From IMG/VR virus record IMGVR_UViG_3300035701_000100, positions 1 through 40,269 of that record: DNA of 40,269 nucleotides. One strand, 5' to 3'. The DNA is from a virus. Below, one piece after another: positions 1 through 19,868 of this stretch (position 1 is the stretch's first letter; each line of letters begins with the position of its first letter). The translations under genes were made by a program, and so were the position numbers. The notes below the pieces were generated by a model. The model saw only the letters and a list, made by a program, of their open reading frames with translations, was not told the DNA's origin and did no database searches.

Positions 1-155
1 ATGCTTGGCTTAACATAATAGCGTCTTTCCTTAACTTCTCGTATTATTTCTTCTGATTCTCTTTTGAATTTTTTTAACATACTTTCAAAAATAGAATCTA
101 TTGGAACATTTTCTGGTAATTGAATTGATTTTTTAAATTCTTTGTTTTCTTCCAT
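1..155 (-). CDS. rpsU-like: Ribosomal protein bS21-like, partial (runs off the left edge)
   Basis: The 51 visible residues read in from an ATG at 155 and continue past base 1 without a stop. The last 30 residues follow the bS21 pattern: a basic helix (LKKFKRESEEII) and then the signature REVKERRYYVKPS, equivalent to the RRRxYYEKPS end of bacterial S21. bS21 sits on the small ribosomal subunit near the anti-Shine-Dalgarno end of 16S rRNA. Phage copies are known, mostly from metagenomes, and are thought to bias host ribosomes toward phage mRNA. The gene is last in the visible operon, 2 bases after the RuvC-like gene. The assignment rests on the motif; the C-terminus is not seen. Confidence 0.78.
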   Translation of the reverse strand, partial: MEENKEFKKSIQLPENVPIDSIFESMLKKFKRESEEIIREVKERRYYVKPS

Positions 156-157
156 TG

Positions 158-730
158 TTACTCCTTTTTCAATCCTGCAAAAGCTAATAATAAAGCATCT
201 GCAATATTATCATCTATTATTTTTTCTTCTACTACATTACTTATCCATCTCATAATTTCTTTTTTCTTATCTTTTCCTTTACTTCCTTTAGGTAAATGAG
301 ATTGAAATCCTACTAATTTACGTGCAGTTGTAGGAAAGATAATTTTTATTTCATTAAATTTATCGCATAGTTTAGCATAAAGAATTCCTTGTAAACATCT
401 GAGGAAACCGAAAGTAACAACATTTATTTTAAGAAAGGAATTTTCAAGTATCAAAATAGAATTATTAGAAATAGAAATATTAGGAATTAATTCTTTATCT
501 ACAAGATTTACAAAATCAGAAAGATGTTGAGAATATTTCTCTGATTTTTCTTCTAAATCTTTGGGTAGCGGAGGAAGTGCTAAAATAAAAGTTTTAATTC
601 TTATTTTTCCTTTTAAAATAGAAATCATCGCAATTCCAGATTTAGTAGCAGTATCAATAGCAAGACAAAATATATTATCCTGAAGTTTAAATCCAAGATT
701 CTTTTCAAGTTTCTTTAATGATTTAATCAT
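158..730 (-). CDS. RuvC-like Holliday junction resolvase (RNase H fold)
   Basis: A 190-residue protein with the acidic pattern of RuvC-type resolvases: LAIDTATKSG in the first strand (catalytic Asp), LILENS in the middle (catalytic Glu), and DDNIADALLLA at the C-terminus (the Asp pair). A basic KGSKGKDKKK stretch precedes the last helix. It should cleave four-way junctions made during phage recombination or before packaging. Its start overlaps the stop of the 51-residue gene upstream. A RuvB-type helicase is encoded near 30 kb in the same window. Another RNase H-fold nuclease role is possible, but the resolvase call fits best. Confidence 0.82.
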   Translation of the reverse strand: MIKSLKKLEKNLGFKLQDNIFCLAIDTATKSGIAMISILKGKIRIKTFILALPPLPKDLEEKSEKYSQHLSDFVNLVDKELIPNISISNNSILILENSFLKINVVTFGFLRCLQGILYAKLCDKFNEIKIIFPTTARKLVGFQSHLPKGSKGKDKKKEIMRWISNVVEEKIIDDNIADALLLAFAGLKKE

Positions 731-878
731 TTTCTATTTGATTTAAAAATCTTTCTATTAATTGTAATTTATTTCCTATTTCTATTAAAATATAACATAA
801 ATATCCATTAATTGTATATGTATCTTTTTCCCAAGAATCCCAAATTTTTACTTCTATTGTATAATTATTTTGTGCCAT
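723..878 (-). CDS. Small hypothetical protein (51 aa)
   Basis: An ATG at 878 opens 51 codons ending at a TAA that overlaps the resolvase start by 8 bases. The protein (MAQNNYTIEVKIWDSWEKD...) looks like a short beta-rich segment followed by an amphipathic helix. No known family is recognised. Tight coupling to the next gene supports it being translated. Confidence 0.6.
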   Translation of the reverse strand: MAQNNYTIEVKIWDSWEKDTYTINGYLCYILIEIGNKLQLIERFLNQIEND

Positions 879-920
879 CTATCTTCCTTCTCTCTTTTGG
901 ATTTAATATTCATTTTTTTA

Positions 921-1760
921 TTATTGTGCTTTTCCTTTTTTGTTTATATTTAATCCTTTAATTTCGTAAGAAGCATCATAATTAATATTATCTCCTTTTG
1001 GATAGGGCAATATTTTCCATTTAAGTGCTGCTCTCATTTCTTTCTTTTGTTTATAATTGCCAAGAAACATCAAATATCGGTGTTTTGGTGTAACTTTTAT
1101 CGGTTCATAACCATTTTTTATAGCATTTTCTATACTTCCAGTACCTAATCTATTAAATATTACTTTCCTATGATACATTTTTCCATCTTTTCTAAATTCA
1201 ATATCCCCACAACCCATTCCAGTATATAACCAATTAAGTGCCTGATAAATATAACCATGATGTCCTTGTCCACTATCAGAATAAGAAATAACTGTTATTG
1301 GTTGGGGCAATAACTTTAAACAAGAACTAACAAAAAAAGACAAAGTGTTTTTTGGTAATAATTCGTTTACAATTAATCGGTTAAGTTCTATACACCGATA
1401 ATTTCCTAGTAAATTATTTAAAGAATTATTTGCACTCATTCCAAAGGTACAAACTCCTTGCAAAATATTATTTTTATTATAAAGACCATAAGAATAAATG
1501 ATAATAGCAGGAATTCTATGTGCATAGTGTTTATTTAAAAACCACTCATAAGTTAATTTCTTATCAATATTTTTAACAGAAAAATCTAATTTATTAAAAT
1601 CATATACTTCTTCTTTACGTTCTTTTTTAATTGGAGCGGAGTTAGCGACTTGCACGCTACTCTCGGAACTGGAAGTTCCGCATGTCTTTTTCGACACTTC
1701 CCCTGCGAATTTAGTTTTAAGTTTTAATAATTCTTCATCACTTAATTTAGATAAATCCAT
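921..1760 (-). CDS. mom-like: Mom-like DNA modification protein (GNAT-fold adenine modification)
   Basis: A 279-residue protein whose residues from about 70 on match the Mom family of phage Mu: NKHYAHRIP near the start of the domain, then YSYGLY, GVCTFG, CIELNRLIV, SFFVSSCLKLL, SYSDSGQGHHGYIYQA, KHRYLMFLG and the terminal PYPKGDN. Mu Mom converts adenine to methylcarbamoyl-adenine and protects phage DNA from restriction. The N-terminal 60 residues are not part of the family: a short helix and then a Ser-rich linker encoded by an unusually GC-rich, hairpin-rich stretch. The gene overlaps the polymerase stop as TAATG, so it is translated with the replication genes. The exact base modification made here cannot be told from sequence. 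Confidence 0.88.
   Translation of the reverse strand: MDLSKLSDEELLKLKTKFAGEVSKKTCGTSSSESSVQVANSAPIKKERKEEVYDFNKLDFSVKNIDKKLTYEWFLNKHYAHRIPAIIIYSYGLYNKNNILQGVCTFGMSANNSLNNLLGNYRCIELNRLIVNELLPKNTLSFFVSSCLKLLPQPITVISYSDSGQGHHGYIYQALNWLYTGMGCGDIEFRKDGKMYHRKVIFNRLGTGSIENAIKNGYEPIKVTPKHRYLMFLGNYKQKKEMRAALKWKILPYPKGDNINYDASYEIKGLNINKKGKAQ
1643..1696. repeat. GC-rich cluster of three hairpins inside the mom-like gene
   Basis: Three consecutive inverted repeats lie in 54 bases: TAGCG/CGCTA (1643-1647 with 1655-1659), CGGAACT/AGTTCCG (1664-1670 with 1674-1680, 3-base loop) and TGTC/GACA (1683-1686 with 1693-1696). The block is clearly richer in G+C than the rest of the gene and codes for a low-complexity Ser/Thr/Val/Ala linker ahead of the conserved domain. 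It resembles an in-frame palindromic insertion rather than conserved protein sequence. Confidence 0.5.
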
Positions 1761-4186
1761 TAAATTAATCCTCTTCTTTTAAGTTCTTCATTAATTTCTT
1801 TTTCGGTAAGATTATCCTGTTTCTTTGTTTTCTTTACTTTAATTTCTTTAATCAATCCCAAATCCCATCCTAATGCTTCAAAAATATTCTCACACTTTCC
1901 TATTATAGTCTTATCAACCATTTTCTTCCAGTTTACAGTAACTTTTTGGTCTATTTGATTTTCATTTAATTGTATATCGAAAGCATCTCTTTTAATATGG
2001 TCGAAAATCTCCTCATCAAATGCCATTACATTTTTATCTATTTCTTTTTCACTTGATTTTTCTTCTTTTTCTCCAGTTTCTTTATTCTTCATACTTCTTG
2101 TTGCTTTTCTAATTGCTTTTCCGAAAGGTTCTACATAAATATAATAAAAAGTATCTCCTGCAACTTTAGTAAATCCACATAATTCTTTAGAATATTCTAA
2201 TGCTCTTGTAAAAATTGGAGGAGATTTATAAACTGTAATATTATTAATTTTACAGGGAAACCCAATGTCTATTAGAGGTACTATTTTAATTCTTTCTTTT
2301 TCTGTATTAATAAATTCTATAATTTGTGATTGGGTCTCCCTATCAAGTATTTTGTCTATTAATTTAGTCTGGAATTCTTGCATGAATTTGCTGCTATCTT
2401 TGCGTTTGGCTTCTACTCCTTTGATTTCTTTTTTAATCTTTCCATCTTTCTTTTTTAAATATCCTACATAATGACAAAGAGCTACTATTAAAATTTTTTC
2501 ATAAATTCCTTCTAAATCAAATTCTATTCCTATGTTATCTTTATTATATTTTTCTTTAGCCCATTGTTTTACTAAATTATTACATAAACTTAAAATATCT
2601 AATCCCAAATCAGTTGATTTAATAAAAACAGAATCGGTATCCAAATAAATAACTTCTGCTCCATTTTCTTTTAATTTTATTTCAACATAATGAAGTAAAT
2701 CCCTAATAATTGAAGTAATCGCACTTGCTATGTTTACATTATAAAGTCTAAAAACTTTCAATGCAGTAACTCCAAATAAAGAATTAACTAATGCTTTTAC
2801 TGCATCGTATTTCATTTGGAGGTCTTTTGCTTCAGGAGTTTCGGGGTCTAATAATTTAAGTTGTTTCTTTAAATAATCTTTTTTGATTATTAACTTCCTG
2901 GCTAATGTAGGTAATAAAGCATTTGAATTTTGTTTAAAATAAACAGGATACTTTATTTCATTAGTTTCTCGGTCAGTAATATCAATTTTTAATTCGTTTT
3001 TATTTTGAGTAAGATTTGCAATATCTAAACAAAAATCAATAATAGCCATGGGGTATGCGCTACTCAAATCGAGCTTATACAAACCTTCAAAACGACCTAG
3101 TTCGGCTCTCCTGTAGGCTCCTTCGAACTCAATTTCTTCAATAAAATCTTCTCCATAATGTTTGGAAGGAAGTACTATTCCTTTTGATTTAGCTTCTGAT
3201 AATAACATCATATCTAATACTTTCGAATTCCAAACAATATCTTCCCAAAGACATTTTCCCATTCTACGAATTTCATCATAATAAGGGATAATCTTTTTTT
3301 CTTTCTCAATTCCAACCATTTTCTTGATGTCTTCTATGTTCTTCTCTTTTATTTCTTCAGTAATTTGACTAAAATCTGCTTTTTTATTTAAAGGAGTATT
3401 TAAGTATTTATGAGCAATAGAATCCAAAGCATAAGATACTTCTCCTTTATAAATTTTCTTAAATAAATCCAAATAATCTAATATACTTATTCCTGTAGGA
3501 TAAGGAATCTCGTCTTCTTTCCTACCGTATCTCATCTTACTTATTGGAGAAATTAATTCTGCTAATTCTAAATTCCATAATCTTTTTATCCGAGCAACCA
3601 AATAAGGATAATCAAATTGGACAAAATTCCAACCTAAAATAAGGTCGGGTTGAGTATCTTTAATATAACGAATTGCATTTTTTAATAAATCATCTTCAGC
3701 CATTTCTAATTTATCTTGTTTGTAATCCAATTTTTCAAATATTAAATCTTCAAGATAATCTTTAATAAACCAATTTCGGATGGTTTTTTCTAATGAATTA
3801 TAAATAGAAATTGAAGTAATTGTTTTATCGGGATTAAGATAAGAAGGCAATTCTTTTGTTTGAATTTCAATATCAATAAATAAATATTTAGTTGGAGAAG
3901 GAAGAATTTCACTTACCTTATCAATCATGTAACGTTTTGGATAAATAACATCTGCCTCATAAGAAGTATCTGTTTTCCGTCTTTTTATTTCTCCAGGTTC
4001 TCTGCAAGTAATTTTCGATACTTTTTTTCCGTCGATTGTTTGATAAATTCCTTTCGGGTCCTCTTCATAAAAATAAGGTTTAAAAATAGTATCCTGCATA
4101 ATAGTAAGAGAACCATCCTTCTGTCTATTAAAAAGATATATCTTATTTCCTATATTGGCTATATTTTTTAAAGGATAATTAAGCAT
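1760..4186 (-). CDS. polB: Family B DNA polymerase with 3'-5' exonuclease domain
   Basis: An 808-residue replicative polymerase. Exonuclease: Exo I FIDIE (about 103-107), Exo II NFVQFD (about 187-192), YALDSIAHKYL (about 252-262) between Exo II and III. Polymerase: motif A DLSSAYP (about 373-379), motif B KALVNSLFG (about 464-472), motif C YLDTDS (about 514-519), then a KGVEAKRKD segment matching the KxY/thumb region. Motif A has SAYP where SLYP is usual, and motif B has Phe for Tyr. Exo III is atypical: an Asp is present (VLD, about 325) but the Tyr normally four residues before it is Ser. It is the phage's DNA replicase, coupled to the mom-like gene and to a small zinc protein by TAATG overlaps. 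Confidence 0.96.
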   Translation of the reverse strand: MLNYPLKNIANIGNKIYLFNRQKDGSLTIMQDTIFKPYFYEEDPKGIYQTIDGKKVSKITCREPGEIKRRKTDTSYEADVIYPKRYMIDKVSEILPSPTKYLFIDIEIQTKELPSYLNPDKTITSISIYNSLEKTIRNWFIKDYLEDLIFEKLDYKQDKLEMAEDDLLKNAIRYIKDTQPDLILGWNFVQFDYPYLVARIKRLWNLELAELISPISKMRYGRKEDEIPYPTGISILDYLDLFKKIYKGEVSYALDSIAHKYLNTPLNKKADFSQITEEIKEKNIEDIKKMVGIEKEKKIIPYYDEIRRMGKCLWEDIVWNSKVLDMMLLSEAKSKGIVLPSKHYGEDFIEEIEFEGAYRRAELGRFEGLYKLDLSSAYPMAIIDFCLDIANLTQNKNELKIDITDRETNEIKYPVYFKQNSNALLPTLARKLIIKKDYLKKQLKLLDPETPEAKDLQMKYDAVKALVNSLFGVTALKVFRLYNVNIASAITSIIRDLLHYVEIKLKENGAEVIYLDTDSVFIKSTDLGLDILSLCNNLVKQWAKEKYNKDNIGIEFDLEGIYEKILIVALCHYVGYLKKKDGKIKKEIKGVEAKRKDSSKFMQEFQTKLIDKILDRETQSQIIEFINTEKERIKIVPLIDIGFPCKINNITVYKSPPIFTRALEYSKELCGFTKVAGDTFYYIYVEPFGKAIRKATRSMKNKETGEKEEKSSEKEIDKNVMAFDEEIFDHIKRDAFDIQLNENQIDQKVTVNWKKMVDKTIIGKCENIFEALGWDLGLIKEIKVKKTKKQDNLTEKEINEELKRRGLI

Positions 4187-4410
4187 TATTTCCCTTTATT
4201 GTATTCTTCAAACGCTTTATATAATCTTCCTTCTTTAGGTAATTTAGTCCAATCATTATTTATACTTAATAATAATTGTTTGCATTTATTATCACAATGT
4301 AAAGTTTCTTTAATCCCTTTCATTGAAAAACAATTAACCAATTCATTTGGGTCTATCGGTAAAATATACTTCCCACAAACATCACAAATTGCTCCTGAAC
4401 TTGTTATCAT
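4186..4410 (-). CDS. Small zinc-finger protein (74 aa)
   Basis: The protein has CDVCGKYI near the N-terminus and HCDNKC about 27 residues later, a likely four-ligand zinc site. It ends in the polymerase start codon (TAATG), so the two are translationally coupled. Such treble-clef-like microproteins recur across this window. Function unknown. Confidence 0.7.
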   Translation of the reverse strand: MITSSGAICDVCGKYILPIDPNELVNCFSMKGIKETLHCDNKCKQLLLSINNDWTKLPKEGRLYKAFEEYNKGK

Positions 4411-4419
4411 TCTATCTCC

Positions 4420-4782
4420 TTATTTATAATCAATAATTAAATGAGCAGGAATCCAAATTGCATCCCTCCCATTATCTATTAATAAATTCATCATTTTATT
4501 TGCTCCAACGGGGTTCATGCTATGAATATAACAAAGTGTATCTACTTGTAAATTATTTTCAATAAGTTTTTTTATAAATTGATAACCTGTATTTTCTTCT
4601 GAAGAATCAACCCAATGACGACTATCCAAATCATGGTCAAGCATCATTACTTTAAATTCATTAAGCAAACATGATTCATACGCATCCTTAACATTATCAA
4701 AAATAAATAATTCTTGATTTTTAAATAATTGTTTAAATTTTTCTATTCTTTCAAAATTATCTTCGAGTATTAAAATTTTCAT
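4420..4782 (-). CDS. Cyclic-phosphate-processing receiver domain protein (cREC-like)
   Basis: The ATG at 4782 overlaps the upstream TGA as ATGA and gives 120 residues; an in-frame TTG six codons earlier is less likely. The receiver-like fold shows LILEDN (acidic pair after strand 1), MLDHDLD (about 48-53), NTGYQFIKKLI and YIHSMNPVG (about 85-93). The LDHDL...TG...HSxNP pattern marks the predicted cyclic-phosphate processing receiver family found with RNA-repair genes, rather than a two-component response regulator; no histidine kinase is nearby. The gene lies directly after an HD-domain hydrolase. The activity is a family prediction. Confidence 0.75.
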   Translation of the reverse strand: MKILILEDNFERIEKFKQLFKNQELFIFDNVKDAYESCLLNEFKVMMLDHDLDSRHWVDSSEENTGYQFIKKLIENNLQVDTLCYIHSMNPVGANKMMNLLIDNGRDAIWIPAHLIIDYK

Positions 4783-5411
4783 TTTAATTCTAATCCACAA
4801 TTACCACATTGAGTTGATAAATTATTTTTTAGTGGACCATCACATTGACATGGAATCCCATCAGTATTATCTACAGGAGTTATTAAATCTTTAGTAGTTG
4901 CAATATAATCTGCGGTATAAACACAAAGTTCTAATAAGGTATAATCTTTTATCTCTTTTTTTATTATTTGAGGAGTCCACAATCCCATGTGAAAACAAAT
5001 ACAATTATTTATTTTTTGTAGTATTTCATCATTAAATTCGTCGCTAATTATAAAATAATTATGAGCATATACAGGATGATTTTCATAATCGGCATAAGTT
5101 ATTTTAGGGTCTTCTTTTGGAGAAGGAACTTTAGCAATATCATGTAAAATAGTTGCAGATAAAACAATATCTCTATCTATTCCTTTTATTCCCCATCCAT
5201 CGCACAATCTATTGGCAATATAAATAGTTCTTTTTACATGAATTAATAATCCACTTTTTATGCAAGTACATGTTGGATGATATTTTCCTGTAGAAGAAGC
5301 CATTCCAATAAAAAAATAATTTGGAGTATTATTTAAAGTTGATTTGGTAAAATTTTTAATTTCTTGATTTTGAATTAAATTAATTTCTTGTTCTAATACA
5401 TTCTTATTCAT
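4779..5411 (-). CDS. HD-domain phosphohydrolase
   Basis: A 210-residue protein with the HD metal site: LLIHVKRT (His58), TILHDIAKVP (His90-Asp91), ENHPVYAHNYF (His112/117), CFHMGLW (His141) and YTADYIA (Asp168). HD enzymes hydrolyse phosphomonoesters, phosphodiesters or nucleotides. The C-terminus carries a separate cysteine cluster (CQCDG...CGNCG), likely a small zinc ribbon. It overlaps the cREC-like gene by 4 bases, so the pair is probably made in step. The substrate is unknown; nucleotide or 2',3'-cyclic phosphate processing is an inference from the neighbour. Confidence 0.82.
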   Translation of the reverse strand: MNKNVLEQEINLIQNQEIKNFTKSTLNNTPNYFFIGMASSTGKYHPTCTCIKSGLLIHVKRTIYIANRLCDGWGIKGIDRDIVLSATILHDIAKVPSPKEDPKITYADYENHPVYAHNYFIISDEFNDEILQKINNCICFHMGLWTPQIIKKEIKDYTLLELCVYTADYIATTKDLITPVDNTDGIPCQCDGPLKNNLSTQCGNCGLELK

Positions 5412-5653
5412 TTTATTTCTTTATCCTCTTTAAAATAATAATCATATAAACTATACTTAATATTAGAATATACACTATCAAAAGTTTGTTTATTTAATTG
5501 ACAGAACTTATGTAAATTTTCAAAAGGAATAGTCATAGTTTCCTTCCCATAAGTAATTTGTAATGGTTTTTTCTCATCAATACATTTTTGAATAATATAA
5601 CTACGAACAGAGGCAAATCCTTTATAAAGTTTTTTGATTTTAACTTTTTTCAT
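5408..5653 (-). CDS. Hypothetical protein (81 aa)
   Basis: A basic N-terminus (KKVKIKKLYKG) is followed by mixed alpha/beta sequence. No family recognised. It overlaps the HD gene by 4 bases and the preceding endonuclease gene by 14 bases, so it belongs to the same transcript. Confidence 0.7.
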   Translation of the reverse strand: MKKVKIKKLYKGFASVRSYIIQKCIDEKKPLQITYGKETMTIPFENLHKFCQLNKQTFDSVYSNIKYSLYDYYFKEDKEIK

Positions 5654-6116
5654 TTAAATATTTTATTGCTTTCAATAATATTTTAGAATTATCATGAACT
5701 AATCCTAATAATAAATTACAGCCATGACATAACAATCCTCTAACTTTACCTGTGTAGTGGTCATGGTCTATATTTAATTTAGATAATTTTTTGTTGCATA
5801 TCAAACATTTTTTATTTTGATTTTCATACATTTTATAATAATTTTCTAAAGTAAGATTATATTTTAATTTTAAATGCGATTTCCTACTTGACAACTTGTT
5901 TAATTTTTTTTCCCCTATATCATAACATTCTTTAGAACAATATATTTGATTGGATGCAGATACAATAACTTCTTTATTGCATATTATGCATTTAATTAAT
6001 CTTTTAATTCTCTCTTTTGGACGTTTTTCCCATTTGCCACCACAGTCTGCATTACAAAATTCAGATTCTTCGTGAAGAGGTAAAAATTCATGTTTACAAA
6101 ATTTACAAATTTTCAT
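5640..6116 (-). CDS. Endonuclease VII-like (treble-clef HNH) endonuclease
   Basis: A 158-residue protein. Two N-terminal zinc knuckles (CKFCKHEF and CIICNKEV, each with a second Cys pair further on) precede a C-terminal recombination endonuclease VII domain: YYKMYENQNKKCLIC, LNIDHDHYTGKVRG with the catalytic Asp-His, LLCHGCN and a final helix. In free-standing form with DNA-binding fingers this is typical of mobile homing-type nucleases in phages. A role in junction resolution is possible, but a RuvC-like enzyme is also present. Confidence 0.85.
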   Translation of the reverse strand: MKICKFCKHEFLPLHEESEFCNADCGGKWEKRPKERIKRLIKCIICNKEVIVSASNQIYCSKECYDIGEKKLNKLSSRKSHLKLKYNLTLENYYKMYENQNKKCLICNKKLSKLNIDHDHYTGKVRGLLCHGCNLLLGLVHDNSKILLKAIKYLNEKS

Positions 6117-6118
6117 TT

Positions 6119-6328
6119 TTAATCTTGCTCCATTTCAATCCAGTCTGAATATAATTTTTTAATCTTATCTACTTGATTTTTATAAATTTTAACAGTTACA
6201 TTTAATTGTCCATTTTTTATTTCTGAATTTACTATTTTTCCAATGTTACCAGTATGGTATTTGACTTTTTTATTTTTAAGTTCTACTTTTAATGATACAG
6301 GAATTAAATTATTAAATTTTAAATACAT
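6119..6328 (-). CDS. Small beta-domain protein with a RecA-like C-terminal peptide (69 aa)
   Basis: Start at ATG 6328, just after the recombinase stop; an in-frame TTG 21 bases upstream lies inside the recombinase gene and is less likely. The core reads IGKIVNSEIKNGQLNV...KKLY and is matched by the 65-residue protein at 20531-20728 (IGKITDSYIKDGKLWA...KKL), so the two are paralogues. The last residues, WIEMEQD, copy the end of the adjacent recombinase (WIEMEQE). Function unknown; see findings. Confidence 0.72.
   Translation of the reverse strand: MYLKFNNLIPVSLKVELKNKKVKYHTGNIGKIVNSEIKNGQLNVTVKIYKNQVDKIKKLYSDWIEMEQD
6123..6142. repeat. 20-bp direct repeat, copy 1 (end of small gene)
   Basis: TCTTGCTCCATTTCAATCCA is identical to 6334-6353. 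Both copies encode the same C-terminal peptide (WIEMEQ) in the same frame at the ends of two adjacent genes. Confidence 0.85.
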
Positions 6329-6329
6329 C

Positions 6330-7346
6330 TTATTCTTGCTCCATTTCAATCCACTCTTTATACAGAGTTTCTATTTCTTTATCTGTGGGTTTTTTAAATC
6401 CAAATTCATTATAAAAATTAGTCCTTACTTCCGTTTCTTCTGGAGCTGTACCACTAATTTTTTTCTTTTCTAATCTATAACAAATTTCAAATCCTATTGG
6501 AAATGATTTATTTTTATCTCCTACTTTGAATTTATAGTGGGGAGCATCTGCCTTAGTTGCTCGATAAGCCTTAATAATAAGAGTAGCCCAATGAGCAAGT
6601 GCCTTACCACCACTTAATTTTTCTAATTTAATGTATCCACCTAAATCCATTCTTGATTGCCCTATTAAAATGAAAGTTACCTTACCTTTATAATTTCCTG
6701 AAGCATCCATTCTAAAAAATTGACTTAAACGTCTTGCCAATAATGCCATTGTATCATCGCCTGTGCTTTTTTCTTCGCCTTTCTTGGTTTCCTGTTCACC
6801 TTCAGGAGAAAGAGATTGTACTGAATCCAAAATTATTACATCAATTACTTTTTCTCTACTCATCTTAATTGCAGTATCCAATCCTTCTTCAGCATTATCA
6901 AAATGCCCAATTAATAATTTACTTCTATCTATTCCACATTTATCTGCCCAAGAATTATCAAATGAAGTTTCCAAATCTAAATAAAGACAAGTCTTCCCTA
7001 ATTTTTGAGCTTGAGCAATCAAATAAAGTGCTGTAGTACTCTTTGTTGAACCTTTGTTTCCCCAAATAACAGAAAATGCTCCTGCAGGGAATCCAGTAAT
7101 CATTTTATCTAATTCAGGTATGCCTGTTGGGATTCTTTCTCTTTCAGGTTCCTCCGAAGCAAAATGTATGATTTCATGCCCGAATTGCTTAGATAGTTCG
7201 TTCACTACCTTCTTGAGGTTTGGGTTGATTGGTATTTCTTCTTTTTTATTATCTGGATTGGATTCTATTTCTTCTTGTTTTTTAACTATTTCTAAAGCAA
7301 CCATCGCTTTATTCTTTTTTCCTTTTGACCCTTTAGTCCTACTCAT
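6330..7346 (-). CDS. recA-like: RecA/UvsX-like recombinase
   Basis: 338 residues with a RecA core: TGIPELDKMITG, a Walker A-like GNKGSTKST (96-104, lacking the usual GKT ending), LYLDLETSF, Walker B VIILDSVQSLSP (170-181), LLARRLSQFFR and LIGQSR...SGGKALAHWAT, matching the second DNA-binding loop region of RecA-type proteins. It should form filaments on ssDNA for recombination-dependent replication and repair. The N-terminus is Lys-rich (RTKGSKGKKNK) and the C-terminus ends WIEMEQE. It overlaps the preceding 47-residue zinc protein by one base (TAATG). Confidence 0.92.
   Translation of the reverse strand: MSRTKGSKGKKNKAMVALEIVKKQEEIESNPDNKKEEIPINPNLKKVVNELSKQFGHEIIHFASEEPERERIPTGIPELDKMITGFPAGAFSVIWGNKGSTKSTTALYLIAQAQKLGKTCLYLDLETSFDNSWADKCGIDRSKLLIGHFDNAEEGLDTAIKMSREKVIDVIILDSVQSLSPEGEQETKKGEEKSTGDDTMALLARRLSQFFRMDASGNYKGKVTFILIGQSRMDLGGYIKLEKLSGGKALAHWATLIIKAYRATKADAPHYKFKVGDKNKSFPIGFEICYRLEKKKISGTAPEETEVRTNFYNEFGFKKPTDKEIETLYKEWIEMEQE
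6334..6353. repeat. 20-bp direct repeat, copy 2 (end of recombinase gene)
   Basis: Identical to 6123-6142, 211 bases away start to start. It covers the last codons of the recombinase gene. Confidence 0.85.
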
Positions 7347-7489
7347 TATTTCTCCTTTTCAAATAAATCCTTTAAAAAATCAGGCATATCTCCTACTTCT
7401 TTATTACATTCAGAGCAAATATTATTTTTTGTTGCTTTATACTTACCACAAATCATACATTTATCAAATTTATAAATATCTTCAATCAT
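7346..7489 (-). CDS. Zinc-ribbon microprotein (47 aa)
   Basis: ATG at 7489, stop sharing a base with the recombinase start. CMICGKYK and CSECNKEV form a single four-cysteine zinc ribbon, followed by an acidic helix (DMPDFLKDLFEKEK). It overlaps the upstream gene by 8 bases. Likely a protein- or nucleic-acid-binding adaptor; no specific function can be assigned. Confidence 0.7.
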   Translation of the reverse strand: MIEDIYKFDKCMICGKYKATKNNICSECNKEVGDMPDFLKDLFEKEK

Positions 7490-7901
7490 TAGATTTCTTC
7501 TCTTCTGTAAATTTATAATTAAAAATTAACCATAATCCTAAAATCTCATGAATGAAATATTCCGCAGCATGTACCATGTCTTCTTTTGTTATTGGTTTGA
7601 ATTTATTTAAAGTAATTGTTTGGTCTAAATAAAGAGGAGTACAACTTGCTTTTACTCCATCCCAGGTATAGATTAATTCGCACTTTGGTTCTTTAAAATA
7701 AGATTTATTAACTATTCTAACATCTGTAAATCCATTTAAATTTTGAATTGTAAAAAGATAAGTTTTAGAATCTGCTAAAACAACATCAAATAAGCAATCC
7801 CTATCATTCCCTTCTATCATTTCCCAAGTATCTAGAATGATATGTTGTCCATTTGCCCAATAATGTTTTTCAATTTCTTTGATTAATTTTTTCCTATTCA
7901 T
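7482..7901 (-). CDS. Hypothetical protein (139 aa)
   Basis: An alpha/beta protein starting MNRKKLIKEIEKHYW, with a QHIILDTWEMI strand, a beta-rich middle and a C-terminal helix (MVHAAEYFIHEILG). SAM decarboxylase was considered because of the first strand, but its processing and catalytic motifs are absent. Coupled to both neighbours by 8-base overlaps. Confidence 0.75.
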   Translation of the reverse strand: MNRKKLIKEIEKHYWANGQHIILDTWEMIEGNDRDCLFDVVLADSKTYLFTIQNLNGFTDVRIVNKSYFKEPKCELIYTWDGVKASCTPLYLDQTITLNKFKPITKEDMVHAAEYFIHEILGLWLIFNYKFTEEKKSND

Positions 7902-8070
7902 TTTTCTCCTTTAATAATAATACTTTTATAAATCTATAGCAATCTTTACATAAAGTTATTCCATGTTCGGAAATATGTTCCTCATTTTTTCCTATTATAA
8001 AATGAACTTCATAATGTTCTCCATTTTTATTCTCAATATCTCTTTTACAACTATAACATTTATAAAACAT
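7894..8070 (-). CDS. Zinc-binding microprotein (58 aa)
   Basis: ATG at 8070 joins the upstream nuclease stop as TAATG, and the TAG end overlaps the next start by 8 bases. CYSCKRDI and, 30 residues later, CKDCYRF make one zinc site around a short beta insert with several His residues. Unknown role. Confidence 0.7.
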   Translation of the reverse strand: MFYKCYSCKRDIENKNGEHYEVHFIIGKNEEHISEHGITLCKDCYRFIKVLLLKEKNE

Positions 8071-8402
8071 TATTTCTTCTCCTTAAATAATCTACAAAAA
8101 TCGGCAAAAGTTAAACAAACTAACTTCCCTTCCACTTCGTTCTCAATAATATACAATGGGATTTTTGTGCTATTCAAAGGAACTTGATTTAATAAATCTT
8201 GCCAAACTTTCTTACTAAAGAATTTTCCTTTATGATTCTTACATTCTACAAAAAAATCCTTAGACATAATATCTCCTATCTCCGTATTGTGCGAACCACC
8301 AGAAGAAGCCTTTGTGGGGCGAATAGTTTGGTCTCCTGTGAGTTCTTTAAGCTTTTCAGCTACATAAAGTTCTAATTGTTTACCTTTTTCTCTAGAGGTC
8401 AT
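8070..8402 (-). CDS. PD-(D/E)xK nuclease (VRR-NUC or resolvase-like)
   Basis: 110 residues with a restriction-enzyme-like core: KGKQLELYVAEKL (helix with Glu), GSHNTEIGDIM (GD motif) and FFVECKNHKG (ExK). The length and the Ser/Gly loop resemble phage Hjc- or VRR-type single-domain nucleases. It lies between the helicase and recombinase genes, so DNA repair or recombination intermediates are the likely substrates. The precise subfamily is uncertain. Confidence 0.75.
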   Translation of the reverse strand: MTSREKGKQLELYVAEKLKELTGDQTIRPTKASSGGSHNTEIGDIMSKDFFVECKNHKGKFFSKKVWQDLLNQVPLNSTKIPLYIIENEVEGKLVCLTFADFCRLFKEKK

Positions 8403-8407
8403 TTTAT

Positions 8408-8929
8408 TTATATTCGGTTTTTTGTTAAATTATTTGAATGTATTTTTCCATGCTCCATTTTTAAAATCCATTCGCAATTTTTTGGAGAATAATCTAAATT
8501 ATTGTTTTTCCTGTGGATACAATAATCTTCTGAAGGGCGATTTCCCATATCTTTAACAAAATTAGCAAAAATTCTCCATCTTTTACAAACTTTAATACCT
8601 CTACCACCATAATCATTATATGAAGTATTTCTAAAATTCTCACATCTTTGGAATATTCCCATCCAAGTTTTATAAGCTAAATTAAAGGATTTTTTAAATC
8701 CACTAGATATAACATTATTTTTACTCCATAAATAACTCCAAATATCTTTAATTTCTTCCACTTCTTTTATATCTTTTGGATTAAACTTTTTTATATAACG
8801 ATAAAAACAACCTTCCCACCCAAAACCTTTACTATTTAAATAATCTTTAATCTCAATACAGCCTTGTCCAGATAAAACTATTCTAGAATATGAACCAAAC
8901 TCCTGCATATCTACTATAATATTTTTCAT
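8408..8929 (-). CDS. HNH/AP2-type homing endonuclease-like protein
   Basis: Residues about 80-165 follow a family common in phage free-standing endonucleases: YKTWMGIFQRCEN, YNDYGGRGIKVCKRW, FVKDMGNRPSEDY, then RKNNNLDYSPKNCEW, which replaces the DRIDNxGxYxPxNCRW of active HNH members. The first Asp of that motif is Arg, so catalysis may be weakened. The N-terminal 70 residues are unrelated and unrecognised. It sits next to another endonuclease gene, which suggests a mobile insertion. Confidence 0.72.
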   Translation of the reverse strand: MKNIIVDMQEFGSYSRIVLSGQGCIEIKDYLNSKGFGWEGCFYRYIKKFNPKDIKEVEEIKDIWSYLWSKNNVISSGFKKSFNLAYKTWMGIFQRCENFRNTSYNDYGGRGIKVCKRWRIFANFVKDMGNRPSEDYCIHRKNNNLDYSPKNCEWILKMEHGKIHSNNLTKNRI

Positions 8930-8931
8930 TT

Positions 8932-9549
8932 TTAGTATTTATTTTTTCTTAAATTTTCTTCAGCCCAAAGGGGTTGTAAATTGGTGTAATGAAAACATTT
9001 GCGTTGTTCTTCGGGTTTAGATAAGTCAAACGAAGCACAAGGTCTAATATGGTCAATGTGCCACAAACCATAATTTGACCAAGACATACCTGACTGGAAC
9101 TGATTTTCTAAATGCTTTTTTAAAAATTCTACAGGGCAACCTATTAATTTAATAGTAGAAGTAGATTTATTAATTCCTTTTAAAACTTTATTTATTCTTG
9201 TTCTTAAATAATGGGCGACTTTAAAATTTATATCAGTTTTTCTCCTATCAATACCATATTTGTTGTTATATTCTGATATTTCTTTTTCATGAATCTTGCG
9301 ATATTGCTTCATATATTCATTATATTTTTCTCTATGACTTTGTCGATATTTTTTTTCTTCTTTGGCAATGTGTTCACGATTTAAAATATTATATTTTTTC
9401 CTCCATTTTTTTAATTCTTCTTTATGAGTATTTTTCCATATCCGAGTTAATTTTTTCTTATTAACTTTCCCACAAAGAATACAATAAATTTGATTGTTGG
9501 TATTCTGAATAAATTCTTTCTTACAATTGGGGCAAAATTTAGTATTCAT
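8932..9549 (-). CDS. HNH homing endonuclease, copy A (right after the primase-helicase)
   Basis: 205 residues: an N-terminal zinc ribbon (CPNCKKEF...CILCGKV), a long basic helical linker (about 35-100), then an HNH domain with KLIGCPVEFLKKHLE, GLWHIDHIRPCASFDL (HNH core) and NLQPLWAEENLRK. Very similar to the gene at 11410-12072 on the other side of the primase-helicase. It overlaps the helicase end by 11 bases. Confidence 0.88.
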   Translation of the reverse strand: MNTKFCPNCKKEFIQNTNNQIYCILCGKVNKKKLTRIWKNTHKEELKKWRKKYNILNREHIAKEEKKYRQSHREKYNEYMKQYRKIHEKEISEYNNKYGIDRRKTDINFKVAHYLRTRINKVLKGINKSTSTIKLIGCPVEFLKKHLENQFQSGMSWSNYGLWHIDHIRPCASFDLSKPEEQRKCFHYTNLQPLWAEENLRKNKY

Positions 9550-11410
9550 TAGTATCTTTTTCTAATATCTTGGTTTCGAAGTCAAATTTACAATTTACTC
9601 TACTTTCGGGATAATTGCCAATTGGGTCTCTTATCTTATCTATCAGCCAAAATGATTTATCTCTTTTATCTCTGTCTTTATACATAAACCTTGCAGCAAA
9701 AGAGGCAAATGATTTAATTAGATTTACTGCAAACCATTGGCTTTCTTCTTTAAGTTGAGTAAATACAATTAAAATACCACCTTTTCTTGCTATTTCATCA
9801 TTTAAATGCTTAAATACTGCTTGAGTTTGAGCAAAATCTTCTCCCAAATATATCCAGTCAATTATGGTAACTGCATCTTTTATTAATTCTATTTGAATAG
9901 GATTGTCTATGGGTTCTTTTGAAATAAAATAATTTTTTTGTTCCAGGTGTAATTTTTTTGCTATTTCGCTATGTCGAGAACCGCTTTCTAAAGAAATATA
10001 ATATGGTTTAATCCCTTGCTTTTGTAATTGTGCAATAATATTCATAGCTATATGAGTTTTCCCTCCTCCAGTAGGAGCACCTAAAAGTAGAATATCTCCA
10101 GTATGAAAAATAGCTACTTTATCAAAATAAGGCATATCAAAATTTATTTCTTTATCTAAAATTATATCTTCATCTGTCCATTCCACCTGTTGTTTTAGTT
10201 CATACCTACCTCTTCCTTTTCTTACTAATTTACCTTCTTTATGAAGTTTAGCTAAATATTTATCTACAATTGCTCTTTTTAAATTAGTATGTTCCATCAC
10301 ATCTTTTGCCGAAATATCACATTGCAATAATTTACAACATTCAAGAACTGCCTTTGCTTGAGTTTGTTCCTCAGACATTTTATAACCTTCCAAACTTCCT
10401 ATCATACTTTTTATAGCAGAAGTAGGCATAGGATGTTCCCACCATTCTCTATTTAAATATAATCCTTGGGATTCAATTTTCTCTATTGGAACTCCTATAG
10501 ATAACGAGAATCCCAGAAATTTTATAAAAGAATCATTACCTTGACCTTGTAAGTTATTATTTTTCAATTTGGGTAATTCTCCTTCTTGTTGTGGCAAATC
10601 TTTTGACAAAGTTTCTGTCTCACTTGTACTTATCTTTTTATTTTCCAATAACTTAGATTTGACAATTTCTGGGACAACTTTAATGTCAGAACCAAGATTT
10701 ACCCAAGTATAATTAAGATTATTAATCTTTGAAGGAGAACATAAAATTTGCCCTCCATCATTCCTAATATCAATAGTAACTCCAGCAATTTTTGAGGTTT
10801 GTTTTATTTCTTTATCATACTTAAAAATAAAATGCTTTCCATGTGGGGTATTTTGAATTAATGTTTTTGATGCAGTTAATTCTTTATAAATTTCTTCGTA
10901 TTCTCCCGAAGGAGCAACTTTTAAATCAGCATCTATTACAGTAATTCCACTAACTTCTCCTGTTCTAATACCTAAATTAAGACCACCTTCTATCCACTTT
11001 AAAATCTCCGATTTATCTTTATGAGTTTTATTGGTCCAATCTTTTTCTAAAGGAATTTTTCCATTTTTAGCAATTGGAAGGAAAGACCAACCATATTTTT
11101 GATATAATTCTAACTCTGGATAATTATCTAATTTTAAAGAATTAATTAAAAAATCCATAACTTCTCCATCAGTCATTGGTTTATTTTCTAATAATCTAAC
11201 AATATCGTATACATTTCCTTTCCAATTACATTGAAGACAATAAATCTTATTATCAGTTCCTGGAATAGTTGTGGCAGTTGGTGATTTTCCTTTATATTTA
11301 TGTTGACCAATATTAGGACAAGTAAATAGGATTTGTCCTTTCTTTTGGGTCTTCTCAAATTCAGGAAGTTTAATTTTTAAATATTCTAAAAATTTAGTAA
11401 AATCAATCAT
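9539..11410 (-). CDS. Primase-polymerase / replicative helicase fusion
   Basis: 623 residues. A CHC2-type zinc finger (Cys31, His37, Cys58, Cys61; CLQCNWKGN) leads into a bifunctional primase-polymerase domain (YGWSFLPIAKNGKIP, LGIRTGEVSGITVIDADLK with the Asp-x-Asp at about 160-162, HGKHFIFKY). A winged-helix-like linker (about 360-410) follows, then a RecA/DnaB-type ATPase with Walker A GAPTGGGKTH at about 440, YISLESG and FTQLKEES. It would prime and unwind the fork for the family B polymerase. Bounded on both sides by related HNH endonuclease genes. Confidence 0.9.
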   Translation of the reverse strand: MIDFTKFLEYLKIKLPEFEKTQKKGQILFTCPNIGQHKYKGKSPTATTIPGTDNKIYCLQCNWKGNVYDIVRLLENKPMTDGEVMDFLINSLKLDNYPELELYQKYGWSFLPIAKNGKIPLEKDWTNKTHKDKSEILKWIEGGLNLGIRTGEVSGITVIDADLKVAPSGEYEEIYKELTASKTLIQNTPHGKHFIFKYDKEIKQTSKIAGVTIDIRNDGGQILCSPSKINNLNYTWVNLGSDIKVVPEIVKSKLLENKKISTSETETLSKDLPQQEGELPKLKNNNLQGQGNDSFIKFLGFSLSIGVPIEKIESQGLYLNREWWEHPMPTSAIKSMIGSLEGYKMSEEQTQAKAVLECCKLLQCDISAKDVMEHTNLKRAIVDKYLAKLHKEGKLVRKGRGRYELKQQVEWTDEDIILDKEINFDMPYFDKVAIFHTGDILLLGAPTGGGKTHIAMNIIAQLQKQGIKPYYISLESGSRHSEIAKKLHLEQKNYFISKEPIDNPIQIELIKDAVTIIDWIYLGEDFAQTQAVFKHLNDEIARKGGILIVFTQLKEESQWFAVNLIKSFASFAARFMYKDRDKRDKSFWLIDKIRDPIGNYPESRVNCKFDFETKILEKDTNEY

Positions 11411-12072
11411 TATTTTGCTCCTTTACTCATATTTTCTTCAGCCCATAAGGGTTGGAGATTTTTCCAATTAAAACATTTATGCTGTTCGCTTAATTTAAAT
11501 AAATCAAATAAAGCACATGGTTTAATATGGTCTATGTGCCATTTACCCATGTTCTCCCACGTCATTCCTGTCTTAAATAGTTTCTGTAAATGTTGTTTTA
11601 AATGGTCAATAGAACAACCAATTAATTTCATAGTAACTTCAGATTTAATATTTCTTTTTAATGCATACCAAATTCTACTTCTTAAAACACGTCTTAATTT
11701 AAAATTAATATCGGTTTTCATTCTATTTTTTATATAACGATTAAATTCTTTTTTATGTTTATTTTGATAAATTTTTTGTTGTTCTAAAAGTTTTTTTCTA
11801 TGAATTTTATAATATAATTTACTTCGTTTTTTATTATATTCTTTTCTGTATTCATTAAAACATTCCTCAGAACAAAATTTTTGATTACCATTGTAAAGAA
11901 TGAATTCTTTTTTGCAAATTAAACAAAATTTAAATTGTTTGGGTCTTGGTAAATATTGTTGTTTTATACATTCTCTACATCGACAAGTTAATCTATCTTT
12001 CTGATTTTTATCGCAATAGAATTCTTCTATAGATTTTATAATTTTACATTTACTACAAATTTTATTTTTCAT
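11410..12072 (-). CDS. HNH homing endonuclease, copy B (just before the primase-helicase)
   Basis: 220 residues with two N-terminal Cys clusters (CSKCKIIKSIEEF and CLICKKEF), a basic coiled linker and an HNH core: KLIGCSIDHLKQHLQ, GKWHIDHIKPCALFDL, NLQPLWAEENMSK. Clearly a paralogue of copy A; both share the TDINFK segment before the nuclease domain. It joins the helicase start as TAATG. Confidence 0.88.
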   Translation of the reverse strand: MKNKICSKCKIIKSIEEFYCDKNQKDRLTCRCRECIKQQYLPRPKQFKFCLICKKEFILYNGNQKFCSEECFNEYRKEYNKKRSKLYYKIHRKKLLEQQKIYQNKHKKEFNRYIKNRMKTDINFKLRRVLRSRIWYALKRNIKSEVTMKLIGCSIDHLKQHLQKLFKTGMTWENMGKWHIDHIKPCALFDLFKLSEQHKCFNWKNLQPLWAEENMSKGAK

Positions 12073-12078
12073 GTTACC

Positions 12079-12645
12079 TTATTCTGCTCTTAACCAGTCT
12101 AAAAATAAATCTGCAATTAATTTAGTAACTTCTGCCAATGCCTCTGGAGATTTATCTTCTAATTGAATAGTTGAATTGCTTACTACCGCAGCAGCAGCAT
12201 TTAAAGCATTACCACGTTGAATTTGTGCAGTTTTCTCAGGATTATTATAATTTCCAGGAGTCCAAGTTGTTCTTTCTTTGCCTGTATCTTTTTCATCAAT
12301 TACTTGTGTTTGTGCAGGATTCTTTTTATTACACATAAAACATTTTTTATACTTCCCATCTTTTAATTCTGCACCGCAATCTGTACAATTAAATCCAGTT
12401 GCAGTTTTAGTTTCTTCTTTTTTCTGTTCGAATTTAACTTTTTCTATTTTAGAAACATTACGAAATACTCCATTCTTCACAAAAGTAATTTCAACTGTAT
12501 CTCCTTTTTCTACCTTAGCCAAATCATCAAGAATTTCCTTATTAGTAGTATACCATTGGTCTTTGTCTCCTGCAATTTTGAATCCTTTTTTATTTGTTGC
12601 TTTGTAATCTATTACTACTGTAAGTGTTTCTGTTTTTTTCTCCAT
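12079..12645 (-). CDS. Putative single-stranded DNA-binding protein with zinc ribbon
   Basis: 188 residues. The N-terminal 75 look like an OB-type barrel (TLTVVIDYKATNKKGF, KGDTVEITFVKNG), followed by a zinc ribbon (CTDCGAEL...CFMCNKK), a flexible linker and a C-terminal helical unit (RGNALNAAAAVV...IADLFLDWLRAE) seen in phage OB-fold replication proteins. It lies directly upstream of the primase-helicase block, where an SSB would be expected. Inferred, not certain. Confidence 0.55.
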   Translation of the reverse strand: MEKKTETLTVVIDYKATNKKGFKIAGDKDQWYTTNKEILDDLAKVEKGDTVEITFVKNGVFRNVSKIEKVKFEQKKEETKTATGFNCTDCGAELKDGKYKKCFMCNKKNPAQTQVIDEKDTGKERTTWTPGNYNNPEKTAQIQRGNALNAAAAVVSNSTIQLEDKSPEALAEVTKLIADLFLDWLRAE

Positions 12646-12816
12646 TTATTCCTCCCTTAAATTAATATCAAATTCTTTTGACAATTTAACTATCTTACCT
12701 ACTACCTCTGTAGTAAATTCATCTATATGGAAATAAATTTCTCCATCTAAAGGTTTACCAGAAATAACCAGATAAACTTCATTATCATTATCTTTTACTA
12801 TCTTTGCTTTGTTCAT
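12646..12816 (-). CDS. Small hypothetical protein (56 aa)
   Basis: ATG at 12816 with a strong GGAGGAATTT site upstream; the TAA abuts the next gene's ATG. The sequence reads as two beta strands (AKIVKDNDNEVYLVI) and a helix (TTEVVGKIVKLSKEF). No family recognised. Confidence 0.7.
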   Translation of the reverse strand: MNKAKIVKDNDNEVYLVISGKPLDGEIYFHIDEFTTEVVGKIVKLSKEFDINLREE

Positions 12817-12825
12817 AAATTCCTC

Positions 12826-13008
12826 CTATTTAATTGTATCACATCCAAAAGCCATTCCTTTATAAATATGATAATAATAATTTTCTTTATAAATTCCAGT
12901 TCCTCCACAAATCTTACATTCACTTTGAGGAATAGGTTTACCTCCAATCTTAGAACAACAATAACAAGAATATTTTAACACTTTTTTAATTACTTTTAAT
13001 TTATTCAT
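12826..13008 (-). CDS. DnaJ-like zinc-knuckle protein (60 aa)
   Basis: Four-cysteine site CYCCSK...CKICGGTG, the second half matching the CxxCxGxG zinc repeat of DnaJ-type proteins, without any J domain. Overlaps the flap nuclease end by 8 bases. Function unknown. Confidence 0.7.
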   Translation of the reverse strand: MNKLKVIKKVLKYSCYCCSKIGGKPIPQSECKICGGTGIYKENYYYHIYKGMAFGCDTIK

Positions 13009-13747
13009 TTAATTTATAAAGTTTTCTAATTTCCTCTCTTATTGAATTAAAAGGTATCTTACTAATATAGAGATTCTTCGGCATCAATTTATCCAATTCT
13101 TCTTTAATTGGTTGTTCAATTTCCTGTGGTAATTGAGTGAGGTCAACTATTCTTTTTCTTATCTCAAATTCTGCTTCAGACGAAGGTTTAGTAAGTAAAT
13201 TATCTGAAATATCCCCATTAATTTTTTCCATAAGGACTTTCATTGGTGCTGGAATAACTTTAAATTTCTTAGAAATAGGACTAAAGATTTTTACATTAGG
13301 AAAAGTTGCCAACATCTCCCAGTCTTTATCTGAGGAAATAAGTATAACTTCCTTATCTTTATAATATCTCGCAGCAACTGAGGCAATGTCATCCGCTTCC
13401 CAACCCCATAATGCTATTCTCTGCCAATTCATTGCCTTATCTAATTTTTCAAATAATGAATCAAATTCTGCATATCTTGATTTCCACCATTCAGGAGATT
13501 CTTTACTTTCTCTAAAATCTTTTCGTTGTGCTTTATAATTTTTATCAAGTCCTTTTCTCCAACTTCTGCCATAATCACAAGCTAAAATAACTAAATCATC
13601 AATATTAGTTTCCACATTTTTTAAATTAGAAATTACCATCCTACAATAAGTATAAGTGCAAGGAACTTGTGAATTAGTACGAAATGCAAAGATTGCCCTA
13701 TGCATTAAATTTCCTGAATCGATTACTATTACTTTTTCTTTAAACAT
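13001..13747 (-). CDS. 5'-3' exonuclease / flap endonuclease
   Basis: 248 residues with a PIN/FEN nuclease layout: VIVIDSGNLMHRA at the N-terminus, ACDYGRSWRK...YKAQRK (basic arch helix), WGWEADDIASVAARY and LISSDKDWEML carrying the acidic metal ligands. This class removes RNA primers and flaps (T4 RNase H and T5 exonuclease are models). The usual C-terminal helix-hairpin-helix is not obvious and the end is divergent. It sits in the replication operon upstream of the SSB-like gene. Confidence 0.88.
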   Translation of the reverse strand: MFKEKVIVIDSGNLMHRAIFAFRTNSQVPCTYTYCRMVISNLKNVETNIDDLVILACDYGRSWRKGLDKNYKAQRKDFRESKESPEWWKSRYAEFDSLFEKLDKAMNWQRIALWGWEADDIASVAARYYKDKEVILISSDKDWEMLATFPNVKIFSPISKKFKVIPAPMKVLMEKINGDISDNLLTKPSSEAEFEIRKRIVDLTQLPQEIEQPIKEELDKLMPKNLYISKIPFNSIREEIRKLYKLNE

Positions 13748-13838
13748 TTAAGTATAGAAAATAAGTTATTCCTAATATAATTAATAATAAAAGTAATAAA
13801 TAAGCAATCATTTCTTCACAAAATAATAAATATCTCAT
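13740..13838 (-). CDS. Single-span membrane microprotein (32 aa)
   Basis: ATG at 13838 preceded by AAGGATAAA. One hydrophobic span (MIAYLLLLLLIILGITYF) makes up most of the peptide. It overlaps the nuclease start by 8 bases and begins 2 bases after the upstream stop. One of several such peptides in the window. Confidence 0.55.
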   Translation of the reverse strand: MRYLLFCEEMIAYLLLLLLIILGITYFLYLNV

Positions 13839-13839
13839 T

Positions 13840-14298
13840 TTATCCTTGTGGCGGTATCGGTTTCTTCAAATAATTTAATTGTGATTGAACTGTCATGATT
13901 TTTTGTCCACAAACTTTACTATAAGCAGCAAATAAATTCGCAGTCCTTAAATAATCTAAATTATTTACTTTGGACATAGCTTTTGCTACTTCATCTGTCG
14001 GAGATTTCTTTCCACCTTTACCGTCATCTACTAAATTATTTTTGGCATTTAATAATTCCCTTGCTTCATTTACTTCTGAATAAGCATCTGCAATCAATGA
14101 AATGATAGTTACTTCACTATGTAGCCCCGTTAATACATTTAGGGCGACTTTTAAATCTGCTTCTTCGGTTAATTGATTTCCTTTAAATTGTGATTGATAA
14201 TCTTCGATAGTATCGATGGTATCTTTAATTGTAATCATCAATTTATTAATTCCTTCAATTCCTTCTTCAAAATAATTTTTTAGGTCTTCATAACGCAT
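13840..14298 (-). CDS. Helical hypothetical phage protein (152 aa)
   Basis: Almost entirely helical, with a hydrophilic loop (VDDGKGGKKSP) in the middle and a C-terminal NLDYLRTANLFAAYSKV helix. Coupled to the diphosphohydrolase gene by a one-base TAATG overlap. Probably a replication-module accessory protein; no specific role can be named. Confidence 0.75.
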   Translation of the reverse strand: MRYEDLKNYFEEGIEGINKLMITIKDTIDTIEDYQSQFKGNQLTEEADLKVALNVLTGLHSEVTIISLIADAYSEVNEARELLNAKNNLVDDGKGGKKSPTDEVAKAMSKVNNLDYLRTANLFAAYSKVCGQKIMTVQSQLNYLKKPIPPQG

Positions 14299-14702
14299 TA
14301 TTTACCTCCTGTAATTATAAAATCTCTTTCTTCTTTTTTTAAATAATTAGGTAAATCATTTAATTCTTTAGGAAGTAATCCTCGTTCAATTAATTCTTCT
14401 GTATGTATCATTGCTCCTACATTCCAAATCGCAGCAGCCAAATGGTCTTCATCTCTCTGTCCTTCTAAATGCTTATAAAGATGTCTTACTGCACTATCAA
14501 AATAACGAGATAATGGTTGACCTTTTTCCCAATTTCTATCTCCATACTTAACTGCTCCATTCTCAAAATGTTTAGCTAATCTTTGAAGCATAAGAGGACT
14601 AATTAAATCATATCTACCTTTTCCAATATTGGTATCCCTCACGCTACCAGTCTTGAATTCTTGCCTTTTTCCTGAATCTTTTACTTTATCAAATTTAGGC
14701 AT
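14298..14702 (-). CDS. dATP/dGTP diphosphohydrolase-like protein (MazG-type fold)
   Basis: The ATG at 14702 has an ideal AAGGAG site 5 bases upstream and is preferred over one 7 codons earlier. 134 residues match the phage dATP/dGTP diphosphohydrolase N-terminal family: GRYDLISPLMLQRLAKHFE, GAVKYGDRNWEKG, YFDSAVRHLYKHL and DHLAAAIWNVGAM. The helices carry the Glu/Asp/His metal ligands of all-alpha NTP pyrophosphatases. Likely tunes the dNTP pool during replication. The family name is a prediction; the substrate is untested. Confidence 0.8.
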   Translation of the reverse strand: MPKFDKVKDSGKRQEFKTGSVRDTNIGKGRYDLISPLMLQRLAKHFENGAVKYGDRNWEKGQPLSRYFDSAVRHLYKHLEGQRDEDHLAAAIWNVGAMIHTEELIERGLLPKELNDLPNYLKKEERDFIITGGK

Positions 14703-14868
14703 GTGTCTCCTTATATTTTTCACAATTTTTGCATAATATTATAATATTTCTATCAAATTTATCTTTTCTTATTCTTAATAATTTTTTAAATTTCATACAC
14801 TTCCGATTTAAAGAATTAAAAAATCTACAAAATGAACTTGGGTCTCCTTCAATAGCACAAAATAACAT
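14695..14868 (-). CDS. Small basic Cys-containing protein (57 aa)
   Basis: ATG at 14868 shares a base with the upstream stop (TAATG), and its end overlaps the diphosphohydrolase start, supplying that gene's ribosome site. Two Cys pairs (CAIEGDPSSFC...C and CKNC) frame a basic helix (MKFKKLLRIRKDKF). Unknown. Confidence 0.6.
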   Translation of the reverse strand: MLFCAIEGDPSSFCRFFNSLNRKCMKFKKLLRIRKDKFDRNIIILCKNCEKYKETHA

Positions 14869-15512: not shown

Positions 15513-15515
15513 TTT

Positions 15516-15716
15516 TTATCCTATTTTTGTTTTAATTTTGATAGTATCTCTAAATTTTTTATAATGTAATTGTTTTCTTCTAATCCAAAGACCACATATA
15601 TCATTAGGAGAGGTATAAATATCTGTATTTCCTCTACTGTGTATTTGACATAAACAATTATCTTCTAATTTCTTATATTTTTTCCAGTATTTGCAGGTAT
15701 TGCAAGTTTTTCTCAT
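15516..15716 (-). CDS. Small Cys-rich protein (66 aa)
   Basis: CNTCKYWKKYK...CLCQIH...CGLW, a single zinc or disulphide-type knuckle common in phage accessory proteins. The basic C-terminus (YKKFRDTIKIKTKIG) suggests nucleic-acid contact. Shares a TAATG junction with the protease gene. Confidence 0.7.
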   Translation of the reverse strand: MRKTCNTCKYWKKYKKLEDNCLCQIHSRGNTDIYTSPNDICGLWIRRKQLHYKKFRDTIKIKTKIG

Positions 15717-19867: not shown

Positions 19868-19868
19868 T

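Follow-up and report, generated by a model that had tools for sequence, protein, structure and literature searches.

The gene cut off by the left end of a 40,269-base virus record of IMG/VR (class linear; hereafter, the window) is a phage copy of the ribosomal protein bS21. It is likely a working protein, co-transcribed with the replication genes and swapped onto the 30S subunits of a host which is, with moderate confidence, a member of the Omnitrophota. Among ribosomal proteins, bS21 is the one that phages carry most frequently, and the host bS21 is bound loosely on 30S subunits. Phage bS21 as such is already known; added here are its location in the replication arm, a deletion in its hinge, and an unusual host lead. 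A phage family in which bS21 moves within the replication arm but never leaves it would speak against an exclusively late role of the protein. A lead to phages of the uncultivated phylum Omnitrophota is offered as well.

Identity of the Gene

The gene fragment (Table 1) reads MEENKEFKKSIQLPENVPIDSIFESMLKKFKRESEEIIREVKERRYYVKPS, i.e., it has an ATG start and 51 codons, stop-free up to the contig edge. Its translation exceeds the cut-offs of PF01165 (27.7 vs. 27 bits, E 2.2e-6) and of TIGR00030 from NCBIfam (35.2 vs. 28.95 bits). An intact homolog was found at the corresponding position in a sister phage retrieved by a scan of viral contigs (IMGVR_UViG_3300031772_004865, 77,390 bp; hereafter, G001), sharing long blocks of 83–99% nucleotide identity with the window throughout the latter. 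This homolog, 90% identical to the fragment across 51 residues, scores 38.8 bits with PF01165 and 47.5 bits with TIGR00030; it is a small basic protein of 65 amino acids possessing the R-R-aromatic-Y-x-K-P-S/T core and a Lys/Arg-rich C-terminal end (...KPSTKKRLAQKESRRKK).

The assignment to bS21 made in the sequence-only reading is thus borne out by the Pfam and NCBIfam cut-offs for both the fragment and the intact homolog. The RRRxYYxKPS-like end it mentioned was essentially correct, the actual residues being ERRYYVKPS. The profile is present in the G001 protein and no further domain follows it; the 3′ end of the window's own gene lies outside the contig. The gene also belongs, as was supposed, to a known kind, reported mainly from phages without isolates (PMC6375957, PMC9723584). 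With bS21 of pelagiphage HTVC008M and uncultivated viruses (Mizuno et al. 2019, PMC6375957) it shares the bS21 domain, the phage origin, signs of purifying selection (see below), and a probable exchange with the host bS21; it differs from them in the phages concerned, the host lead, and an N-terminal tail (LPENVPID) that precedes the domain. Like the bS21 proteins that Chen et al. 2022 (PMC9723584) described from jumbo phages of Bacteroidetes, it keeps the conserved aromatic core residue.

The comparison of the window and G001 genes over 51 codons revealed 12 synonymous and 7 nonsynonymous changes (dN 0.058, dS 0.62, dN/dS ~0.095 in this one short comparison). All five amino acid changes fall within residues 10–25. 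The dN/dS of ~0.10, together with residues 26–51 remaining unchanged in spite of seven synonymous codon differences, clearly points to purifying selection. The window holds only a fragment of the gene, as a non-functional piece of a host gene picked up by the phage would appear; such an origin is extremely improbable and is contradicted by the intact gene in G001, by the presence of bS21 in seven of seven related contigs, and by the low dN/dS.

Hinge Deletion and Predicted Structure

Where the first helix passes into the second, the bS21 of the window and G001 is two residues shorter, one of the lost residues being a Gly that most other aligned sequences retain; this also sets it apart from the proteins of Mizuno et al. 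The hinge spacing is normal in four more distant relatives (G004, G005, G009, and G010). AlphaFold2 predicted helices at residues 21–45 and 50–64 in the G001 protein, the first one unbroken, and at 21–37, 39–47, and 52–65 in that of G009, with a break at residue 38 (models of moderate confidence: mean pLDDT 80, pTM 0.44 and 0.41). The models are thus all-helical, with two main helices joined by coil, as expected of bS21, and the predicted unbroken first helix goes with the two-residue loss in the window/G001 lineage. A Foldseek search with the 65-residue helical model returned zero matches of any kind and was uninformative; the sequence search of PDB chains does find bS21.

The altered hinge is relevant to a quite unlikely possibility, namely that bS21 of the window and G001 acts as a regulator outside the ribosome or as a ribosome inhibitor, shutting down host initiation instead of serving phage translation. 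One predicted continuous helix (21–45) in place of two would accord with it, and so would the report that E. coli ribosomes carrying HTVC008M bS21 had lost nearly all activity in vitro (~5% active; PMC6375957), so that incorporation need not help translation and may even inhibit it. At the same time, the core motif is unchanged and under purifying selection, the four relatives retain the normal hinge, and the helix models are of moderate confidence. Overall, a functional ribosomal bS21 is preferred.

Gene Neighborhood and the Replication Arm

The genes next to bS21 encode proteins for DNA replication, recombination, and modification (Table 1). The RuvC-like gene, 73–78% identical to its homologs in three other phages, stops two bases before the bS21 start, and the Mom-like protein is identical in G001.

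Table 1. Features of the window (40,269 bases)
Feature	Position	Strand	Basis
bS21 (rpsU-like) gene, 5′ part of 51 codons, truncated at the left contig end	3–155	minus	PF01165, TIGR00030, G001 homolog
Shine–Dalgarno site of bS21, AAGGAG within AAAAAGGAGTAACAATG, located in the 3′-terminal codons of the RuvC-like gene	161–166	minus	sequence and G001 comparison
RuvC-like Holliday junction resolvase, immediately upstream of bS21	158–730	minus	phrog_159, E 0.0023 (weak)
Mom-like DNA-modification protein	921–1760	minus	PF25680, 123.7 bits
Family B DNA polymerase	1760–4186	minus	PF00136, 102 bits; PF03104, 57 bits
RecA/UvsX-like recombinase	6330–7346	minus	PF00154, 114 bits; phrog_97
Primase-helicase	9539–11410	minus	phrog_1156, E 7.5e-18; phrog_19, E 7.3e-8
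Alternative bS21 slot of G004, G005, G009, and G010, empty in the window	13840–14723	minus	contig comparison; PF18909 on 14298–14723
Trypsin-like protease, hydrophobic N-terminal segment	15716–16591	minus	
HNH, endonuclease VII or homing-endonuclease-like genes	5640–6116, 8408–8929, 8932–9549, 11410–12072, 17631–18311, 22134–22832, 25271–26464	minus	profile-tested: 5640–6116 only; G004 relatives at other positions
Sigma factor, phage-encoded	24419–25015	minus	phrog_351, E 7.2e-12
Tyrosine recombinase	27014–27838	minus	phrog_1, E 5.9e-29

In the sequence-only reading, bS21 closed the replication operon, which turned out to be an artefact of the contig edge. In G001, genes on the same strand continue past bS21, i.e., small genes, a metallophosphoesterase (SbcD-like by motifs, with no Pfam match), an RNA ligase (PF09414), and an SbcC-like ATPase. 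Since these co-directional recombination and repair genes lie beyond it, bS21 is, by gene order, inside the replication/recombination cluster and not at its end. The structural arm was assigned by two genes on the opposite strand of G004, a tape-measure-like gene (phrog_58, E 1.8e-6) and one with a weak match to a virion protein, as well as by layout; most other putative structural genes lack a family match.

The G001 polymerase (17200–20520, minus strand) comprises 1106 amino acids vs. 808 in the window. Its extra stretch (~18430–19400) starts with CYSEDTEILSIDGWKKYNEL and ends with FISGN before SAYPMAI, so its ends are intein-like; Pfam and NCBIfam searches of the stretch gave no match.

In the 293–331-kb phages of Chen et al. 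2022, bS21 resides among terminase, portal, and capsid genes, unlike here; the same paper also mentions bS21 of some phages in the vicinity of DNA-processing genes (PMC9723584). It is conceivable, if unlikely, that the present bS21 is likewise a late protein, its position in the replication arm telling nothing about when it is expressed. Published phage bS21 genes are often found near structural genes, and transcripts of bS21 were abundant late in infection (PMC9723584). Moreover, bS21 in the phages studied by Chen et al. is opposite in strand to its structural neighbors, which means that timing cannot be read from the strand alone, and the sigma factor encoded in the window could redirect transcription. 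Nevertheless, the gene is co-directional with the replication genes and starts directly after the RuvC-like stop; no terminase, portal, prohead protease, or capsid gene was found near it, its neighbors being of the replication/repair type, and the recognizable structural genes are distant and on the other strand. It is also inside the same arm in the four relatives with readable context. Expression with the replication genes is the favored reading.

Probable Relocation of bS21 within the Arm

Exactly one bS21 gene was found in each of seven related contigs (the window, G001, G004, G005, G009, G010, and G011), but six of the seven were recovered via bS21 or its neighbor, which makes its occurrence throughout the family in part a consequence of how the contigs were chosen. 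In G004 and G005, more distant relatives where both genes are measurable, bS21 lies ~12 kb upstream of the RuvC-like gene in the same arm, flanked by a small membrane-protein-like gene on one side and an HNH gene or a 149-amino-acid gene on the other. The same slot is occupied in G009 and G010; the G011 protein gives matches like those of the G005 one. The slot, bounded by a dATP/dGTP diphosphohydrolase-like gene and a small gene on one side and a gene for 147–152 amino acids on the other, is closed up in the window.

All these bS21 proteins have the N-terminal LPEN(V/I) tail and retain the RRYYxKPS core. Because the tail is common to all copies, the simplest reading of the gene order is that bS21 relocated within the arm in the window/G001 lineage, the gene being retained throughout. 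Genes for HNH and homing-type endonucleases abound in these phages, and one directly follows bS21 in G004; that they drove the relocation is speculation. The proposal that translation takeover is tied to replication is supported only in part: bS21 stays in the replication arm across the phage family, co-directional with its genes, but its exact neighbors are not conserved.

A few genes upstream of the alternative slot, the window encodes a trypsin-like protease. The action of phage proteases against host bS21 has been a matter of speculation by McNutt et al. (PMC9976891).

Candidate Host

A tblastn search of 50,697 records of phage isolates with the intact bS21 gave no match, and the phage polymerase matched known phages only at <60% identity. 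Four phage bS21 sequences were used as the query in a scan of 84,980 species genomes, which yielded three bS21 genes, all on Omnitrophota/Omnitrophica contigs and beside housekeeping genes; the scan required exact short motifs, so other phyla may be missed. A profile of the phage bS21 matched 241 of 285 Omnitrophota genomes with up to 48.6 bits, as compared with a maximum of 31.7 bits among bS21 chains in the PDB, a set covering far fewer species. The chromosomal rpsU of Omnitrophota, the top-scoring cellular sequences found, share the EVKERRYY.KPS core with the phage protein but lack its LPENVPID tail, keep the Gly hinge, and are situated beside housekeeping genes.

Another lead comes from the Omnitrophota MAG G203, whose contig C94:1-4089 (4,089 bases) belongs to this phage family; on it, the phage exonuclease, the 158-amino-acid protein, and the primase (the last with E 5.3e-99) follow one another as in the phage, subject to possible binning error. 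Taken together, these findings moderately favor a member of the Omnitrophota as the host, leaning on short patterns, on MAG binning, and on Omnitrophota as the one phylum sampled at this depth.

The comparison of window positions 1–20000 with the 285 Omnitrophota genomes at the DNA level gave mostly short AT-rich matches near E 1e-4. The strongest one (G206, E 1e-8) falls within a gene resembling those of homing endonucleases and is hardly informative on the host, and a CRISPR link was dropped as array-type repeats were absent from the six of the best DNA matches that were checked.

Translation Signals and Proposed Function

Shine–Dalgarno matches of at least 5 bases precede 41–61% of the phage genes in both arms vs. 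6–9% at any ATG. With this excess over the background, it is very likely that the host uses Shine–Dalgarno pairing. In this respect, Bacteroidetes genes, and thus the Bacteroidetes hosts of Chen et al. 2022, differ (PMC9723584, PMC9976891). Of 14 Omnitrophota genomes, three yielded the canonical anti-Shine–Dalgarno end GGATCACCTCCTTT; in the others, the 16S end may be missing from the assembly. No special phage leader for bS21 to favor was seen in the phage genomes, and Shine–Dalgarno use is equal in both arms; as the arms share this ordinary signal, nothing indicates selective translation.

Under the preferred reading, bS21 would probably be transcribed with the replication/recombination genes of the minus-strand arm and translated from its own Shine–Dalgarno site. 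The product would then probably be exchanged for host bS21 on 30S subunits, keeping initiation efficient, or tilting it to phage mRNA, during phage replication; early expression, incorporation, and benefit are all what we infer. Incorporation is suggested by analogy, because HTVC008M bS21 enters E. coli 70S ribosomes and bS21 is one of the exchangeable ribosomal proteins (PMC6375957). The most economical account is that, in early expression, the phage simply supplies or replaces a protein that ribosomes can exchange. A bolder and improbable version is that an Omnitrophota phage makes the hinge-deleted bS21 along with its replication proteins, forming a specialized ribosome early, before the late use proposed elsewhere.

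The window also encodes a tyrosine recombinase (54% identical to its G004 counterpart), which deserves mention since phages with bS21 have been reported as almost all lytic, temperate signature genes being present in only 0.23% of the bS21 viruses of Mizuno et al. (PMC6375957).
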